From Methylophilus rhizosphaerae (GTDB lineage Bacteria; Pseudomonadota; Gammaproteobacteria; Burkholderiales; Methylophilaceae): a DNA stretch of 64,000 nucleotides. The stretch lies in assembly GCF_900100975.1 (NCBI RefSeq), contig NZ_FNFX01000002.1, positions 1 through 64,000 of the forward strand. Reading direction: 5' to 3'. The translations under genes and the position numbers were made by a program. Positions 9,371-21,577 of this stretch are shown one piece after another; positions within the stretch are counted from its first letter, which is position 1; each line of letters starts with the position of its first letter. Below the pieces are notes generated by a model, which saw nothing but the letters and a program-made list of their open reading frames with translations, was not told where the DNA came from and searched no databases.

Positions 9371-10315
9371 TTATTGCGCAGGATTTCCCTGCGGTTTCTG
9401 TAATGACTTCACTTGCGACTGGTCATGCTCGCTGACTGAAATCTGGTCATTGTCTTTTAACAATTCCTCTTCCGTTTCCTTATTCATGACAATCAGGCTG
9501 ATCCGGCGGTTAATCGGGTTAAACGGGTTTTCCTTATCAATCATAATGGCGGAACCCAGCCCTACCACGCGCATCAGCTTGGTCTCATCCATGCCACCCG
9601 CAATCAGCTCGCGGCGCGACGCATTCGCCCGGTCAGATGACAGCTCCCAGTTACTGTAGCCATGTTCACCATTGGCATAGGCGGTGGCATCGGTATGGCC
9701 GGACAAGCTGATTTTGTTATCCACACCATTCAGCGTTTTGCCGATCTCACGCAAAATCTGCCTGGCGTACGGCTGCAATTCCGCCTTGGCATTTTCAAAC
9801 ATGGGCCGGTTCTGCTCATCAATAATCTGTATGCGCAAACCTTCACTGGTAATATCCAGTTTTAACTGGGACTTGAATTGTTTTAAAGTCTCGTTATCTT
9901 CAATGGCCTGCTCGATTTTGGCTTTCAGTGCTTCCAGCTTGATTTTCTCTGCTTGTTTCAATGCCGCTTTGACATCTTCGATCCTGACCGATTTCAACTT
10001 GCCTGGGTCACCTTCTACCGGTTTTACCTGCCCCTGTTTCTTTGTAACGTCCCGGCCACCGGTATTCTTTAACGCAGAATCGCTCTGGCCGACAGAAGGC
10101 CCTGTCAATACCAAATGCAATGGGGTCTGGAAGTATTCGGCAATGCCCTCTTTCTGGGCTTTGGTAGTTGAGCCGAGCAACCACATGAGCAGGAAAAACG
10201 CCATCATGGCGGTGACAAAGTCGGCATAGGCAATTTTCCAGGCGCCGCCATGGTGGCCACCACCATTTTTTTTAATTTTTTTAACAATAATCGGGGCAAT
10301 ACGATCTTCTGCCAT
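9371..10315 (-). CDS. motB: Flagellar stator protein MotB
   Basis: A 314-residue stator subunit anchored to peptidoglycan. A single membrane helix near residues 28-50 carries the proton-relay Asp32 in YADFVTAMMAFF. An OmpA-like peptidoglycan-binding domain covers about residues 170-290 (LSGHTDATAYANGEHGYSNW..SSDRANASRREL). It lies 40 bases downstream of motA. The proton as coupling ion is the family norm and is not shown by the sequence. A second stator pair is encoded at 19968-21577. Confidence 0.95.
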   Translation of the reverse strand: MAEDRIAPIIVKKIKKNGGGHHGGAWKIAYADFVTAMMAFFLLMWLLGSTTKAQKEGIAEYFQTPLHLVLTGPSVGQSDSALKNTGGRDVTKKQGQVKPVEGDPGKLKSVRIEDVKAALKQAEKIKLEALKAKIEQAIEDNETLKQFKSQLKLDITSEGLRIQIIDEQNRPMFENAKAELQPYARQILREIGKTLNGVDNKISLSGHTDATAYANGEHGYSNWELSSDRANASRRELIAGGMDETKLMRVVGLGSAIMIDKENPFNPINRRISLIVMNKETEEELLKDNDQISVSEHDQSQVKSLQKPQGNPAQ

Positions 10316-10355
10316 GATGTTCTCTCGGAATAGGCTGACTCACTAACAGGATGGA

Positions 10356-11216
10356 TTATTTCGACTTGGTCTGCTTCACATGGTCTTCCAGTTCGGTAAA
10401 GCCTGGACGCTCGGTGGAGTACAGCACCTTGCGCCCGAACTCCACGGCGATGGGTGGTGCATAACCGTTGAGGCTGGCCAGCAGGACCACTTTGACGGTT
10501 TGCAGGCTTTTGCTGGTCTCTTCCAGTTTTTGCTCCAGCAAGCCAGCCAGCGGGCCAATAAAGCCATACGATAGCAAAATACCAAGGAATGTCCCCACCA
10601 GGGCATGGGCGATCAGAATACCCAGTTCGGCCGGTGGCAACGCCACGTTTTCCATGGTGTGTACCACGCCCATCACGGCTGCCACGATACCGAATGCCGG
10701 TAAGCCATCGCCCAGCCTGGCGATACAATGGACCGGTACATGCCCTTCCATATGATGGGTCTCCAGCTCGTTATCCATCAGGTTTTCCACCTGGAAGGCA
10801 TCCATGTTGCCGGACACCATCAGGCGCAGGTAGTCACACATAAATTCCACCAGGTGATGGTCGTGCAGGATATTGGGGTATTTGGCAAACAAGGCACTGG
10901 CTTCAGGATCCTCGATATCATTCTCAATCGACATCAGGCCATCCTTGCGGATTTTGGTCAGGATTTCAAACAGCAAGGCCAGCAGATCCATATACAGTTG
11001 TTTGGAGTATTTGGAGCCTTTGAACAAGGTAGGAAGCGCTTTCAGTGTGGCTTTGATGGCCTTGCTGTCGTTTCCGACCACAAATGCGCCAGCAGCACCA
11101 CCAAAAATCATCATGAGTTCCAGTGGCTGCCACAGCGCACCCAAATGGCCGCCTGCGATTGCATAGGCACCGAAAATCATGCCGCATACCATGATATACC
11201 CGATTACAACAAACAT
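10356..11216 (-). CDS. motA: Flagellar stator protein MotA
   Basis: A 286-residue MotA with four predicted membrane helices (near residues 1-25, 30-50, 170-190 and 200-225) and a large cytoplasmic loop that touches the rotor protein FliG. Length and the segment LGDGLPAFGIVAAVMGVVHTM match the family. It is the first gene of the minus-strand motility cluster; the 123-base gap upstream should hold its promoter, but I found no convincing sigma-28 site there. Confidence 0.95.
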   Translation of the reverse strand: MFVVIGYIMVCGMIFGAYAIAGGHLGALWQPLELMMIFGGAAGAFVVGNDSKAIKATLKALPTLFKGSKYSKQLYMDLLALLFEILTKIRKDGLMSIENDIEDPEASALFAKYPNILHDHHLVEFMCDYLRLMVSGNMDAFQVENLMDNELETHHMEGHVPVHCIARLGDGLPAFGIVAAVMGVVHTMENVALPPAELGILIAHALVGTFLGILLSYGFIGPLAGLLEQKLEETSKSLQTVKVVLLASLNGYAPPIAVEFGRKVLYSTERPGFTELEDHVKQTKSK

Positions 11217-12270: not shown

Positions 12271-12837
12271 TTAAGCAGTCATGGATACCAGTTTATAGCT
12301 GAGTTCTTTGGCTTTTTTGGTTTTACCGGCACGTGAAGGCACATGGCACAGGTTACATACATAATTCTGGTTCAGGTCATAGCTGTTGACGATATATTGG
12401 CCACCACAGCAATGACAGATTTTAGTCGTCAGCAATTTGCTTTCGATAAAGCGTACCAGGGTCCAGGCGCGTGTCAGTGACAGCACTGGCTCTTCATTTT
12501 GCGCTGCATCAGGGTTCTGCACCTGCTGCATGTACAAAGTGTAGGCTTTGATAATGGCTTGAATCCCATCTACACCGGCATAATCCACCATGAAGCGGTA
12601 GATATTATAGAAAATGGAAGAGTGGATATTAGGTTGCCATGTCAGGAACCAGTCAGTGGAGAATGGCAACATGCCTTTGGGAGGTGAGACCCCTTTCATC
12701 TCCTTGTACAGCTTGATCAAGCGCTCGCGGGACAATGTGGTTTGCGACTCCAGCAATTGCAAGCGTGCACCCAGTTGGATCATTTGCATGGCCAGTTGAA
12801 TTTGTTCTGCTTCGTTGACTACACTTTTCTTTTGCAT
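12271..12837 (-). CDS. flhC: Flagellar master transcriptional activator subunit FlhC
   Basis: A 188-residue FlhC. With FlhD it forms the FlhD4C2 complex that switches on class II flagellar promoters. The four-cysteine zinc site is visible as CHCCGGQY (about residues 141-148) and CNLC near 161. The preceding segment with ERLIKLYKEMKGVSPPKGMLPF is typical of the family. It starts 45 bases after flhD. Confidence 0.96.
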   Translation of the reverse strand: MQKKSVVNEAEQIQLAMQMIQLGARLQLLESQTTLSRERLIKLYKEMKGVSPPKGMLPFSTDWFLTWQPNIHSSIFYNIYRFMVDYAGVDGIQAIIKAYTLYMQQVQNPDAAQNEEPVLSLTRAWTLVRFIESKLLTTKICHCCGGQYIVNSYDLNQNYVCNLCHVPSRAGKTKKAKELSYKLVSMTA

Positions 12838-12882: not shown

Positions 12883-13206
12883 TTAAACAGTAGACTCAGC
12901 AGCCTGGGCAGACATCAATACTGCTGTGTGCAGGTGAGCCTGGGTAGCATCTTTGGTGTAGCTGGTCAGCATGCCCAGAATTTCGCTATCATCAAAACGG
13001 AAACGGGTCAGCAACATATTGGTGTTGCACAGTTTGAGCAATTGCAGGTTAGTCAGGTTTTCCAGCAGGTCAGCAATTTCCTTGTTAATGCCGAGGCGGA
13101 AAATGGCGGTGGCCTTGTCGGCGCGGATCAGTTGTTGTGCCAGCATCAGATAGTTCAAGTTGGCATCTTTGATTTCAGCGAGTAAATCGTTTTGCATGAC
13201 ATTCAT
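12883..13206 (-). CDS. flhD: Flagellar master transcriptional activator subunit FlhD
   Basis: A 107-residue helical FlhD with LLAEIKDANLNYLMLAQQLI near the N-terminus. The ATG at 13206 has GGAGA about 10 bases upstream; an in-frame ATG three codons later is an alternative. It is divergent from flhB across a 608-base regulatory region. A betaproteobacterium using FlhDC fits Burkholderiales-like and Methylophilales-like control. Confidence 0.95.
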   Translation of the reverse strand: MNVMQNDLLAEIKDANLNYLMLAQQLIRADKATAIFRLGINKEIADLLENLTNLQLLKLCNTNMLLTRFRFDDSEILGMLTSYTKDATQAHLHTAVLMSAQAAESTV

Positions 13207-17100: not shown

Positions 17101-18432
17101 ATGAACATCAGAAGATTTTTTGGCAAGAATGCACGCGATGCATTGGCACAGGTCAAGCAGGCATTGGGTGAAGATGCCATTATCGTCGCCAATCGCAGCG
17201 TCAATGGTGGCACCGAGATCATGGCCATGCTCGAATCCGATATTGAAACCACGGACAGCCAGCAGGCAGAGCCTCAACCTGACCATGGCCGTAGCCTGCT
17301 GGATTTTGTCACGGGCAAAGAACAGCCACGCCCGGCCTCACAACCGGCAACACGCGCACCGGTTGCCCCAGCTGCGATGGAAGAGGATCCTGCCAGTGAG
17401 CATGCCATCATGGATATGCTCAAACAGCACAGCGAACAGCAGGAACAGGCGTATCAACTGGCCACCCAGACCCTGGAAGACAAAATGCAGGGCATGATGC
17501 AGGAAATGCGTCATATGCGCAGTCATTTTGAAACCCAGATGAGTGCCATGACCTGGCAGCATCACCTGCAACATAGCCCGGCCAAGTCCAAAGTACTGAG
17601 CACTTTGCTGTCAGCCAGCTTCAGTGCTGCCCTCTCCCGCCAGATTGCAGAAAAAATACCGCAGCATATTGACGTCAACAAGGCACCGATGTGGGCAAAA
17701 GAAGTCATCAGCCGCAACCTGCATACCCTGGATGATGAAGATGCTCTGCTGGATCGTGGCGGCGTCTACGCACTGGTAGGCCCGACTGGCGTGGGTAAAA
17801 CGACGACTACAGCCAAACTGGCCGCCCGTTATGTCATGAAGCACGGCACCCAGAACCTGGGCCTGATCACGACAGACAGCTACCGTATCGGTGGTTACGA
17901 GCAATTACGCATCTACGGCAAAATTCTGGGCGTGATGGTACATGCGGTTAAAGATGAAGAAGACCTGAAAATCGCGCTGAATGAGCTGAAAGGCAAACAC
18001 ATGATCCTGATTGACACAGTCGGTGTCAGCCAGCGTGACCAGGCGGTAACAGAGCAATTATCCATGCTGAGCAGAGCGGAGTCACCGATCCAGAAACTGT
18101 TGTGCCTGAATGCCACGTCCACTGGTGAAACGCTGACGGATGTGATGCGCAGCTACAAGAAACACGAGATGGCCGGTTGTATCGTGACCAAACTGGATGA
18201 AGCAGCGGCGATTGGCAATGTGCTGGATGTGCTGATTCGTGAGCGCATGCGCTTGTTCTACACCACCAGCGGCCAGCGTGTACCGGAAGATATTGAAGTC
18301 GCCGACAAACAAGCCCTGGTTGAGCGTGTGTTAACTCCACATCAGGCCAGCCTGCCCTACCAGTACCTGGATGAAGAATTGCCACTGGTGATTTCCAGCA
18401 TGATGCAATCCCAGGGAGAGGCGCATGCTTAA
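17101..18432 (+). CDS. flhF: Flagellar SRP-type GTPase FlhF
   Basis: A 443-residue FlhF that sets the site and number of flagella, typically at a cell pole. The N-terminal B domain includes FFGKNARDALAQVKQALGEDA. A variable linker follows, then the SRP GTPase NG domain with the P-loop GPTGVGKTTTTAKL at about residues 229-242, DTVGVSQRD and TKLDEA. It overlaps the next gene by 8 bases, which suggests translational coupling with its partner. Confidence 0.96.
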   Translation: MNIRRFFGKNARDALAQVKQALGEDAIIVANRSVNGGTEIMAMLESDIETTDSQQAEPQPDHGRSLLDFVTGKEQPRPASQPATRAPVAPAAMEEDPASEHAIMDMLKQHSEQQEQAYQLATQTLEDKMQGMMQEMRHMRSHFETQMSAMTWQHHLQHSPAKSKVLSTLLSASFSAALSRQIAEKIPQHIDVNKAPMWAKEVISRNLHTLDDEDALLDRGGVYALVGPTGVGKTTTTAKLAARYVMKHGTQNLGLITTDSYRIGGYEQLRIYGKILGVMVHAVKDEEDLKIALNELKGKHMILIDTVGVSQRDQAVTEQLSMLSRAESPIQKLLCLNATSTGETLTDVMRSYKKHEMAGCIVTKLDEAAAIGNVLDVLIRERMRLFYTTSGQRVPEDIEVADKQALVERVLTPHQASLPYQYLDEELPLVISSMMQSQGEAHA

Positions 18433-19219
18433 TTACCAGGACCAGGCCGATGGTTTGCGCCGCCTTATGGCCAAGTCCTCAGCCCGTATCATCAGTGTCA
18501 TGACCGCCAGTGGCCAGCCAGCCAGCAGCTGGCTGAGCCAGCTGGCAGCCAGCATGACCAGCACCGGGCAGCGTACTTTGGTCATTCAGGCAACCCAGCA
18601 ACCAGCCACCGCCCATACTTTACATGCCGTGGCATTACGCAAAAGCCTTCTGAGCCGCGCCATCATCAGGCATCCGCAAGGCTATGACCTGGCCGCGTTG
18701 GCTGAAAATAACACATTAACCTCCACCTTATCAGGCGATGTAAAAACGGCGCTGGACGGTATAGTGAACCAGCTTGCGTATGGTTATGATACCGTCATGA
18801 TAGAAGCAATACTGGATGGCCGTGACCAGCACCTGGTGTTACCGGTCATGGCGCAACATGCAGTAGTGATCCAGATGGAACGCAGTGACGAGGCGATTAA
18901 ATCGGCTTATATTACGATTAAACGCCTGTGCCAACAGGATGCCCAACAACCGTTAAGCATCATGGTGACGGGCGCTACGCATGCACAGGGGCAGCAGTAC
19001 TTTATGCGCCTTAATCAGGTATGCGGACAATTTCTGGGCATCTCGCTGAATTTCCTGGGCGCGATTCCGCAGGCGGTAACCATACAGAAAGCCAATGGTG
19101 TAAGCCATCGCAATGGAGGCGATACCTCCCCTGCGGCTCAACTGGCACTGGCGTTTAAAACCATTGCTGGCAGCCTGGAGAAACAACGTTTAGCCACCCC
19201 TTCACTGGCGGCTGTCTAA
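18425..19219 (+). CDS. Degenerate FlhG (FleN)-like protein lacking the P-loop
   Basis: A 264-residue protein at the normal flhG position between flhF and fliA. The N-terminal DQADGLRRLM matches the FlhG motif that activates the FlhF GTPase. The next segment, where FlhG/MinD proteins have a KGGVGKT-type Walker A, reads SVMTASGQPASSWLSQLAAS and has no lysine or P-loop glycines. The MinD-like fold seems kept downstream (YDTVMIEAILDG, VVIQMERSDEAIKSAY). It should therefore be unable to bind or hydrolyse ATP in the usual way, yet may still act on FlhF. Position makes a FlhG origin likely; present function is inferred. Confidence 0.8.
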   Translation: MLNYQDQADGLRRLMAKSSARIISVMTASGQPASSWLSQLAASMTSTGQRTLVIQATQQPATAHTLHAVALRKSLLSRAIIRHPQGYDLAALAENNTLTSTLSGDVKTALDGIVNQLAYGYDTVMIEAILDGRDQHLVLPVMAQHAVVIQMERSDEAIKSAYITIKRLCQQDAQQPLSIMVTGATHAQGQQYFMRLNQVCGQFLGISLNFLGAIPQAVTIQKANGVSHRNGGDTSPAAQLALAFKTIAGSLEKQRLATPSLAAV

Positions 19220-19233
19220 AAAAGAGGGAAAAC

Positions 19234-19968
19234 ATGTATACCGCTAAAGGCACAACGAACAATACCGACCAGATGCTGAAACAGCATAGTGTCATGGTCA
19301 AGCGCATGGCCTACCAGCTGAAATCCAAGCTGCCTTCGTGTGTGGAGGTGGATGATCTGGTGCAGGCAGGCATGATAGGCCTGATGGACGCCATCCAGCG
19401 TTATGAAGATACGCATGGCGCACAGTTTGAAACCTACGCCTCACAACGTGTGCGCGGCGCCATGCTGGATGAGTTACGCGGTGCTGACTGGTTGCCACGC
19501 GGTATCCGTAAAAATATGCGTGACATTGAGGTCGCGGTGCAGCAGTTGGAGCAAAGATTTGGCCGTCCGCCGACCGAATCTGAAATTGCCAAACACATGA
19601 ATTTCAGCCTGGAAGACTACTACGATGTACTGAGTGACTGCCAGGGCCACCAGTTGATTTACTACGAAGACTTTCAGGATGATGACAGCAGCGAGCATTT
19701 TCTTGACCGCTATGTCGATGACGACAGCAGTGACCCGGTTAAATCCCTGCTGGAAAGCGATTTCCGTGAAGCACTGATTGATTCGATTGACCGCCTGCCG
19801 GAGCGCGAAAAGGTATTAATGGGCCTGTACTATGAACAGGAGCTTAACCTGAAAGAAATCGGCGCCATCATGAATGTGTCCGAATCACGTGTCTGCCAGT
19901 TGCATAGCCAGGCAGTTGCCCGTTTACGTGCTTCCATGCGCGATAAGGCCTGGACCGGAGCGGCATAA
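19234..19968 (+). CDS. fliA: Flagellar sigma factor FliA (sigma-28)
   Basis: A 244-residue sigma factor for late flagellar and chemotaxis genes. Region 2 (VEVDDLVQAGMIGLMDAIQR..FETYASQRVRGAMLDELR), region 3 and region 4 (LPEREKVLMGLYYEQELNLKEIGAIMNVSESRVCQL) are all present. It starts 14 bases after the flhG-like gene, with an AAGAGGGAAAAC ribosome site, and its stop overlaps the motC start (TAATG). Confidence 0.97.
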   Translation: MYTAKGTTNNTDQMLKQHSVMVKRMAYQLKSKLPSCVEVDDLVQAGMIGLMDAIQRYEDTHGAQFETYASQRVRGAMLDELRGADWLPRGIRKNMRDIEVAVQQLEQRFGRPPTESEIAKHMNFSLEDYYDVLSDCQGHQLIYYEDFQDDDSSEHFLDRYVDDDSSDPVKSLLESDFREALIDSIDRLPEREKVLMGLYYEQELNLKEIGAIMNVSESRVCQLHSQAVARLRASMRDKAWTGAA

Positions 19969-20720
19969 TGGATTGGGGTAGTCTGGCCGGCCTGGTCATT
20001 GCCCTCGCCGGCCTGGTATTGGGGCAAACCATTGAAGGCGGCCACCTGAAATCACTCATGCAGCCGGCGGCTTTTGCCGTGGTCGTGCTGGGAACCGTGG
20101 GCGCCGTTTTGCTGCAAACGGAACTCAAGCTATTCATCAAAGGCGTGCGCATGCTGCGCTGGGTGTTTGTACGCCCACAGGATGACCGCCAGAAACTGGC
20201 CATCAGAATTAACCAGTGGAGCCTGCAGGCACGCAAAGAAAGCGTGCTCTCCCTGGAAAACCTGATTCACCGCGAGCGAGATCCTTTTGTACGCAAAGGA
20301 CTACAGCTATTGGTGGATGGCACGCCTGCCGACCGTATCCGTGAAGTGTGCGCGATTGATATGTATTATTTTGAAGCGCAGGAACGGGATGCCATCAAGG
20401 TCTGGTCTGCTGCGGGAGGCTATGCGCCAACGGTCGGTATCCTGGGCGCGGTGCTGGGATTGATTCATGTGATGGAAAACCTGTCTGACCCGGCCAAAAT
20501 CGGCAGCGGGATTGCTGTGGCGTTTGTCGCGACGATTTATGGCGTCGCCCTGGCTAACCTGGTCTTCCTGCCGATTGCAAACAAATTAAAAAGCCATGTA
20601 CAACATGAAATGTCGCGCCGTGAAATGCTGCTGAATGCCTGGGTCTCCATCGCCAGGGGCGATAACCCAAAACTGGTCAGTGAGCGGCTGGAAGCCTACC
20701 TGCGCCTCAGGGAGTCGTAA
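19968..20720 (+). CDS. motC: Flagellar stator protein MotC (second MotA-type subunit)
   Basis: A 250-residue MotA/ExbB-family membrane protein with helices near residues 5-25, 30-50, 145-170 and 180-200. The segment AAGGYAPTVGILGAVLGLIHVMENL is typical of MotC/PomA stators. Start and stop codons overlap fliA and motD by the TAATG arrangement at both ends, so three proteins are probably made in a coupled way. It is distinct from the MotA at 10356-11216. Confidence 0.9.
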   Translation: MDWGSLAGLVIALAGLVLGQTIEGGHLKSLMQPAAFAVVVLGTVGAVLLQTELKLFIKGVRMLRWVFVRPQDDRQKLAIRINQWSLQARKESVLSLENLIHRERDPFVRKGLQLLVDGTPADRIREVCAIDMYYFEAQERDAIKVWSAAGGYAPTVGILGAVLGLIHVMENLSDPAKIGSGIAVAFVATIYGVALANLVFLPIANKLKSHVQHEMSRREMLLNAWVSIARGDNPKLVSERLEAYLRLRES

Positions 20721-21577
20721 TGTACCGGCGCAGAATGCATGAGGATGAAGAGGATAATCATGACCGCTGGCTGATTTCCTATGCGGATTTCATTACGCTG
20801 CTATTTGCGTTTTTTGTCGTGATGTACGCCACTTCCACCATTAACCTGAATAAGTACCAGGCATTATCCAATGCAGTGGTGACAGCCTTCCAGGGCAAGC
20901 CCGGGCAAACACCTTCCATGGATATCCAGAACCCGTCTTCATTGCAGAACCAGAGCGCTATCCTCAAACCATTGCCGCTGAACTACCTGTACCAGGAAAA
21001 GAAACAGCGTGACCAGGAAAAAATGTATGCCCTGGGACAGCAGCTGGCCAATATGCTGGCCCCCTGGATAGAGCAAAAGAAAATCATCGTCTCCCAGGGA
21101 GAATTTGGTATCGATATTGTGATGCTGAGTGGCTTCCTGTTTAAAGCGGATGGTATGACATTGTCGGATCAGGCGCCTTATGTGCTCAAACTGATAGGCG
21201 GGCAATTAAAAAAAGAACTGCGCAGCATCCAGGTGGAAGGCCATATGGATAGGCATATGTTTGCACATGAGGTCAGCCCGGACATCAGGCGATGGGAAAT
21301 GACGGCGGCACAGGCGGCGCGCGTTGCCGCCATCCTGAACACGCGGGGCATTCCGAACAAGCGGTTATCTGCCAGCGGCCTGGCCGATACCAGGCCGGTT
21401 TCCAGTAGTGAAAATGATCTGGCGCAAGCCATGAATAACCGGGTTGTCATCCGCGTGCTGACAGCAGAAAGTAATGCGCAGCAAGCAAGTAATAATATGA
21501 TGCAATTGCAAATTGATCCCGGCGATGGCGCGGCATTACAGCAACCGGCAGCAGAAATATCTGCTGCCAGGCCGTAG
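20720..21577 (+). CDS. motD: Flagellar stator protein MotD (second MotB-type subunit)
   Basis: A 285-residue MotB-family protein: cytoplasmic start, one membrane helix with Asp23 in ISYADFITLLFAFFVVMY, and a C-terminal OmpA-like domain (QVEGHMDRHMFAHEVSPDIRRWEM, LSASGLADTRPV). It pairs with MotC. An 8-bp inverted repeat (21547-21568) lies inside its last codons, next to a convergent gene 6 bases away. Confidence 0.9.
   Translation: MYRRRMHEDEEDNHDRWLISYADFITLLFAFFVVMYATSTINLNKYQALSNAVVTAFQGKPGQTPSMDIQNPSSLQNQSAILKPLPLNYLYQEKKQRDQEKMYALGQQLANMLAPWIEQKKIIVSQGEFGIDIVMLSGFLFKADGMTLSDQAPYVLKLIGGQLKKELRSIQVEGHMDRHMFAHEVSPDIRRWEMTAAQAARVAAILNTRGIPNKRLSASGLADTRPVSSSENDLAQAMNNRVVIRVLTAESNAQQASNNMMQLQIDPGDGAALQQPAAEISAARP
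21547..21568. repeat. 8-bp inverted repeat in the 3' end of motD
   Basis: GGCAGCAG and CTGCTGCC flank 6 bases (AAATAT). It sits inside the last codons of motD with a convergent gene starting its stop 6 bases beyond motD. With so little intergenic space this hairpin could serve as a shared transcript end, although no T-tract follows. Confidence 0.4.

Follow-up and report, generated by a model that had tools for sequence, protein, structure and literature searches.

A P-loop-less FlhG with an intact FlhF-activating helix in Methylophilus and its relatives

In the sections of reviews and papers on which we draw here, FlhG is described as a MinD-type ATPase. The FleN/FlhG proteins of Pseudomonas, Vibrio, and Shewanella possess the deviant Walker A motif KGGxGKT, the DxD motif, switch II, and a membrane helix, and they have FleQ/FlrA as a partner; none of these is present in the case described below. 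In fold, operon position after flhF, and YxxxK helix, the proteins resemble each other, and DQAxxLR in Shewanella FlhG is a further common feature (PMC11236974). The FlhG/YlxH proteins of Bacillus and Geobacillus (structures 4rz2 and 4rz3) share with our protein both DQAxxLR and the K/R/F residues for C-ring docking, in which the ATP site and the membrane helix are lost. The ATPase domain of Campylobacter jejuni FlhG is reportedly dispensable for flagellar number, the protein acting through the FlhF GTPase. A deviant Walker A motif, absent from our protein, is outlined for C. jejuni FlhG in a figure legend (PMC3228812).

Several activities of FlhG have been described. The glutamine of the N-terminal enhancer helix is co-catalytic for FlhF (PMC12826062), stimulation of FlhF has been attributed to the N-terminal region of FlhG, a 23-residue FlhG peptide has been crystallised on FlhF (PMC7226244), and the Q8A exchange in Bacillus subtilis FlhG resembles an flhG deletion (PMC12327844). 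FliM binds FlhG independently of nucleotide, whereas FlrA binds the ATP dimer only (PMC11236974), and a C-terminal sequence is reported to bind the membrane in this dimer (PMC12826062). According to a 2025 study, the function of the ATP-dependent homodimer had "remained enigmatic"; its authors propose GpsB as a partner for it in B. subtilis (PMC12327844). Within the parts of the open-licence literature that were searched, we found no description of a P-loop-less FlhG.

The window analyzed here is a stretch of 64,000 nucleotides from Methylophilus rhizosphaerae (contig NZ_FNFX01000002.1, positions 1 to 64,000), and the features relevant to this study are as follows:

12271..12837, minus strand: flhC, subunit of the master regulator FlhDC (PF05280, 2.7e-88)
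12883..13206, minus strand: probable flhD (ORF upstream of flhC, named by position and reading)
17101..18432, plus strand: flhF, intact SRP-type GTPase with G1 GPTGVGKTTTTAKLA (TIGR03499, 274.9 bits, over the cut-off)
18425..18432, plus strand: flhF/flhG overlap of 8 nt (from ORF coordinates; shared by 12 of the 14 loci compared within the genus)
18425..19219, plus strand: flhG, P-loop-less, 264 aa (ORF call; FlhG/FleN by profile and fold)
18434..18472, plus strand: FlhF-activating (enhancer) helix, residues 4-16 (predicted as a helix, with a local pLDDT of about 70)
18503..18529, plus strand: place of the deviant Walker A motif, residues 27-35 (TASGQPASS), signature Lys and Walker Lys absent
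18587..18595, plus strand: place of Walker A' DxD, residues 55-57 (QAT), by alignment
18803..18817, plus strand: place of switch II DTAAG, residues 127-131 (EAILD), by alignment
18908..18922, plus strand: YITIK, residues 162-166, with Y162 and K166 constant in 84/84 family sequences
19007..19009, plus strand: R195, equivalent of Arg207 by inferred mapping (alignment)
19031..19033, plus strand: F203, equivalent of Phe215 by inferred mapping (alignment)
19234..19968, plus strand: probable fliA (sigma-28; ORF named by reading and known gene order)

The ORF at 18425-19219 encodes an FlhG of the MinD fold in which the DQAxxLR helix is intact and the Walker A motif missing. It starts with ATG, and the protein opens with MLNYQDQADGLRRLM. 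A preliminary description of this DNA had reported the FlhF-activating motif as intact, the P-loop as erased, and the gene as coupled to flhF. All three statements hold: DQADGLR occupies residues 6-12; the beta1-loop-alpha1 region reads IISVM-TASGQPASS-WLSQLA, having neither a Gly-rich loop nor a lysine, so that signature Lys and Walker Lys align with S29 and A33; and the 8-nt overlap supports the coupling. However, the change is wider in scope than the P-loop, to which that description had confined it. The Walker A' aspartates and the D and G of switch II, each found in 69 of 69 sampled FlhGs of other orders, are replaced by Q55 and T57 and by E127 and D131, respectively, and the C-terminal amphipathic membrane helix (WPxP...LEFFVERL) falls into gap columns, as judged by a test on the sequence. 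Thus, the protein lies directly downstream of flhF and has the DQAxxLR helix, MinD-like fold, and homology of an FlhG, while it lacks the hallmarks of MinD/ParA-type ATPases with a deviant Walker A motif, namely KGGxGK[ST] including the signature Lys, DxD, switch II DTxxG, and the membrane helix.

The assignment to FlhG is supported by several comparisons. The protein alone matched PDB FleN in phmmer (E 1.2e-6), and a profile of 42 family members matched both FleN (8e-44, starting at profile position 19 and so leaving out the DQA helix) and Geobacillus FlhG (3e-27, in an alignment where the two DQA motifs coincide), while hhalign against 17 intact FlhGs of other orders gave an E-value of 6.2e-46 and a probability of 100. 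With the 42-sequence alignment as input, the structure was predicted as a MinD fold (pLDDT 86.7), for which Foldseek returned FlhG (4rz3/4rz2) and then FleN (5j1j) as top matches. Searches of the window protein gave nothing over the cut-off in Pfam and nothing at E<=1 in NCBIfam. Routine annotation would therefore probably miss such proteins, and the discarded ATP site explains their escape.

The order referred to below is Burkholderiales (betaproteobacteria), with Gammaproteobacteria as the class in GTDB. A search of the family Methylophilaceae returned 93 matches from 82 of 187 genomes, 89 of which were fetched, the remaining four being partial. DQAxxLR was present and Walker A absent in all 86 FlhGs with a readable N-terminus; the other three fetched matches are two truncated pieces (L028 and L087) and L097. 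The state noted for this one gene is thus family-wide, as the recommended alignment with orthologs revealed. Among unique sequences, the P-loop is erased and the DQA glutamine present in 84 of 84, and the only invariant columns of the family alignment (A1) are D6, Q7, A8, G10, L11, R12, Y162, and K166. Of the 90 family loci that extend far enough upstream for a loose motif test (six of which duplicate genes already fetched), 89 have an ORF with an FlhF-type GTPase motif that terminates at flhG, the single miss being L097, another protein. The FlhF G1 motif is intact at all 14 genus loci and takes its usual form in each of the 29 family loci where enough of flhF was in view, while 56 family loci showed too little or none of it. 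The repetition of the P-loop-less state in many genomes rules out a sequencing artifact.

L097 itself, found within the family, is another kind of protein, MinD/FleN-like, which lacks DQA and whose P-loop is intact; no flhF was seen next to it.

Across the order, 313 of 399 genomes gave some match, the weak ones including other MinD/ParA proteins. We compiled 162 unique FlhGs, selected independently of the DQA pattern, in which D, Q, A, L, and R of the enhancer helix are constant. For the 78 sequences from outside the family, the ATP site is in graded states: GK[ST] in 21, a Gly-loop without Lys in 33, and erasure in 24. These sequences were hand-picked among the matches listed, one to several per family code, and the profile was built from P-loop-less proteins; therefore, 21/78 is not a population estimate. 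Counted by family code outside Methylophilaceae, intact sequences were absent from 17 of 28 codes, the sole state in 9, and present beside non-intact ones in 2. The signature Lys was seen in 5/78 of these sequences and in 0/84 family sequences. Twelve order FlhGs added later, some from family codes sampled before, include one with GKT (1/12), while their DQA motifs (12/12) follow from their selection; one FlhG, L388, carries both DQA and GKT. The FlhF G1 motif was usual in all 95 tested DQA-type loci of the order.

The picture differs in other orders of the class, for which FlhGs from 70 of 101 matched genomes were chosen among the matches listed. There, each of the 69 unique FlhGs carries both lysines (signature and Walker) along with DxD and switch II, and the membrane columns are filled; since the profile used contains P-loops, a P-loop-less FlhG could have escaped. 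DQAxxL[RK] occurs in 50 of these 70 FlhGs, compared to 167/167 in an initial family and order sample drawn from matches reaching the N-terminus of the profile (Fisher 2.9e-12, ignoring relatedness and sampling); the corrected count for family and order is 179/182.

The converse loss is also seen: the remaining 20 of the 70 FlhGs of other orders (L275-L344) lack an exact DQAxxL[RK] and have an intact Walker A. An altered FlhF G1 motif accompanies 2 of 18 DQA-less FlhGs in these orders versus 0 of 49 (Fisher p 0.07, short of significance).

A maximum-likelihood tree was computed for 103 rows with the motif columns left out; it was obtained by a quick method and contains several long rows, and 33 of its 100 inner branches are open. 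The DQA-type FlhGs of the order form one side of a branch (100*), and the window FlhG falls into a 28-row group (99*) comprising the main family group, codes f7 and f33, and one f28 row, in none of which GK[ST] is present. The fewest changes on this tree are 7 for Lys and 4 each for erasure, membrane helix, and signature Lys. Outside the family, the membrane-helix column is filled in 21/21 intact, 32/33 Lys-less, and 1/24 erased sequences, compared to 10/84 sequences within it. Nine of these ten rows are one set (L090-L096, L098, and L099; six on the tree, apart from the main family group), and the tenth, L084, stands out by the length of its tail. The idea that erasure of the P-loop and loss of the membrane helix were linked repeatedly had to be rejected, as only 1 independent pair occurs on starred branches (4 on all); the link therefore rests mostly on one clade.

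Within the genus, dN/dS was estimated from 14 of 22 genomes as the median over the 47 of 91 pairs with pS 0.05-0.6. Purifying selection acts on flhG and is most pronounced in the helix: the median is 0.16 for flhG overall, about 0 for the helix (the lowest of the gene), 0.12 for the core (residues 104-215), and 0.39 for the tail, compared to 0.02 for the last 270 codons of flhF, all values being rough because synonymous sites are near saturation. Pseudogene decay is ruled out by this selection together with the open reading frames. The old P-loop stretch (residues 27-36) has a dN/dS of 0.14 and, being constrained in the genus, may do something else. Such constraint could be expected if a nucleotide pocket were built from other residues, and the predicted MinD-like fold (pLDDT 86.7) and the Gly-loop without Lys of the 33/78 order relatives are compatible with this as well; however, with the Gly-loop, both lysines, DxD, and switch II gone and these columns varying in the family, we regard such a pocket as very improbable.

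The preliminary description had further proposed that this FlhG can only stimulate FlhF, which appears too narrow. In Geobacillus FlhG, Lys177, an Arg (printed as 277; the mutant is R207E), and Phe215 are needed for binding FliY, a nucleotide-independent interaction (PMC12327844). In the chain numbering of 4rz2/4rz3, K, R, and F are found at 185, 215, and 223, so that a constant offset of 8 can be inferred from a three-point match; by this mapping, Lys177 aligns with K166, and K166, R195, and F203 match nucleotide-free C-ring-binding residues. Lys is found at position 166 in 84/84 family and 77/78 other order sequences, and F or Y at position 203 in 75/84 family sequences. R195 is constant in the genus (13 of 13 unique sequences from 14 loci) but occurs in only 17/84 of the family, where 59/84 have Asn; the docking triad is therefore complete mainly in the genus.

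These data also bear on whether the body of the protein matters at all. FlhG might be a passive carrier of its N-terminal helix, with the MinD-like body a relaxed scaffold that neither docks on the C-ring nor has a role in counting. The faster evolution of body and tail compared to the helix (0.39 for the tail), the predominance of Asn at position 195 outside the genus, and the N-terminal region reported as responsible for FlhF stimulation (PMC7226244) all speak for this, but the constancy of Y162 and K166 in 84/84 family sequences, the core dN/dS of 0.12, and the retained predicted fold make it unlikely.

A separate MinD/FleN-like protein could also supply the ATPase in trans, and proteins of this kind exist in the order. 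Eight order matches starting past profile position 16 (L377-L384) were fetched, and all of them carry KGGxGK[ST] and lack DQA. Three, L377-L379, lie downstream of an flhF-like gene with the unusual G1 GPSG, and for L379, the only one of the three tested with profiles, Pfam identified FHIPEP (FlhA), SRP54 (FlhF), and sigma-70 neighbors. Therefore, a second flagellar FlhG type exists in the order, and these are the three exceptions to DQA in the family and order count. The other five (L380-L384) lie away from flhF, none being seen next to them. The pattern is thus reciprocal, not universal: within the order, loss of the ATP site affects FlhGs of the DQA type, while the DQA-less ones seen retain it.

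L383 adjoins GGDEF and hydrogenase genes.

Provision in trans would fit these proteins and L097 within the family, but no candidate was found in the genome of M. rhizosphaerae, and of all the alternatives we consider this the least probable. Profile A2 gave a single match at E<=1e-30, and no second flhG was found in this 99.99% complete genome with searches extended to E up to 10. No canonical MinD scored over the cut-off either, the best TIGR01968 match, a ParA, reaching 73 bits against a cut-off of 213; thus, no MinD-type membrane-cycling ATPase was found there. The nine CbiA-type matches over the cut-off are ParA-like, ApbC-like, or, by reading only, of CobQ, CobB, BioD, and SRP types.

A search for the FleQ/FlrA partner in the same genome (PF06490) gave nothing over the cut-off (best E 0.009), and its FliM retains the N-terminal SQDEIDALL stretch. 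Strong FleQ matches (E<1e-11) were found in 0 of 57 family and order genomes versus 15 of 23 outside, or 6/57 versus 17/23 when weak matches over the Pfam cut-off are included, with the outside genomes as the sole positive control, since 14 named control genomes were all unmatched. As the 6 outside genomes without any FleQ match all retain Walker A, the absence of FleQ is a correlate that fits only at the order level.

With no strong FleQ match and with FliM binding reported as nucleotide-independent, we read the ATP-dependent output of FlhG (FleQ/FlrA and membrane) as dropped and FlhF stimulation and C-ring docking as kept. The reading that we favor, with a probability of about 60%, is that of a nucleotide-free, non-membrane FlhG that would dock on the C-ring and stimulate the FlhF GTPase, its independence of ATP being deduced from the sequence. 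The MinD-like fold would be unable to form the ATP sandwich dimer and, as the membrane helix is gone as well, FlhG should stay a soluble monomer. With its K166/R195/F203 surface it would dock on the C-ring during growth, at the FliM/FliN side, and its N-terminal helix would insert the co-catalytic Q7 into the FlhF GTP dimer, triggering GTP hydrolysis and releasing FlhF. Restraint on new flagella, and hence flagellar number, would be set by the assembly state of the C-ring and protein dose rather than by an ATP/membrane cycle or FleQ repression. The different counting mechanism suggested in the preliminary description can thus reasonably be inferred.

Two sets of published results count against a nucleotide-free FlhG. 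Walker A mutants of Vibrio alginolyticus FlhG lose ATPase activity, polar localization, and negative regulation, and Vibrio Walker A mutants are hyperflagellated with a deregulated master regulator (PMC7226244); other FlhGs therefore do need ATP. Furthermore, C-ring assembly by FlhG in vitro used lipids and ATP (PMC12327844).

Transcriptional partners of FlhG beyond FlrA/FleQ are called an open question in a review (PMC12826062), and flhC and the probable flhD lie about 6 kb from flhG, so the body might have been repurposed to bind another regulator such as FlhDC. However, 34 of 57 family and order genomes have a DQA-type FlhG yet no strong FlhC (two have a weak one), and we consider this improbable, if slightly less so than a pocket from other residues. 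A swap to FlhDC as sole cause of ATP-site loss was rejected: in a hand tabulation of family and order genomes, GK[ST] is kept in 7/23 with a strong FlhC versus 11/34 without, which gives the presence of FlhDC no predictive value for the loss.

For the order as a whole, we tentatively propose, at slightly less than even odds, that FlhG of the DQA type has been losing its ATPase character: in the absence of FleQ/FlrA, the partner that reads the ATP dimer, the signature Lys, the Walker Lys, and the P-loop would have eroded, followed last by the membrane helix. The endpoint, in Methylophilaceae and allied lineages, would be a nucleotide-free adaptor coupling C-ring growth to FlhF shut-off, while the second type, in few genomes of the order, would have kept the ATPase and lost DQA. 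Together with the intermediate states in relatives, a lineage that keeps FlhF, the activating helix, and the C-ring-docking Lys and discards the ATP site amounts to a natural knock-out, in which it is directly testable which FlhG functions need ATP. The prediction is that FleQ/FlrA and membrane cycling depend on the ATP state of FlhG and that control of FlhF does not, and flagellum control of this kind may not need an ATP clock.

Our search returned no papers on Methylophilus flagellation, and two papers on Burkholderia flagella, in the portions seen, name FlhG only in the introduction or references (PMC3885665, PMC4905959). Besides the genes described above, the window contains two stator-like gene pairs, of MotA/MotB type by reading, at 9371-11216 (minus strand) and 19968-21577 (plus strand), which suggests dual stators.
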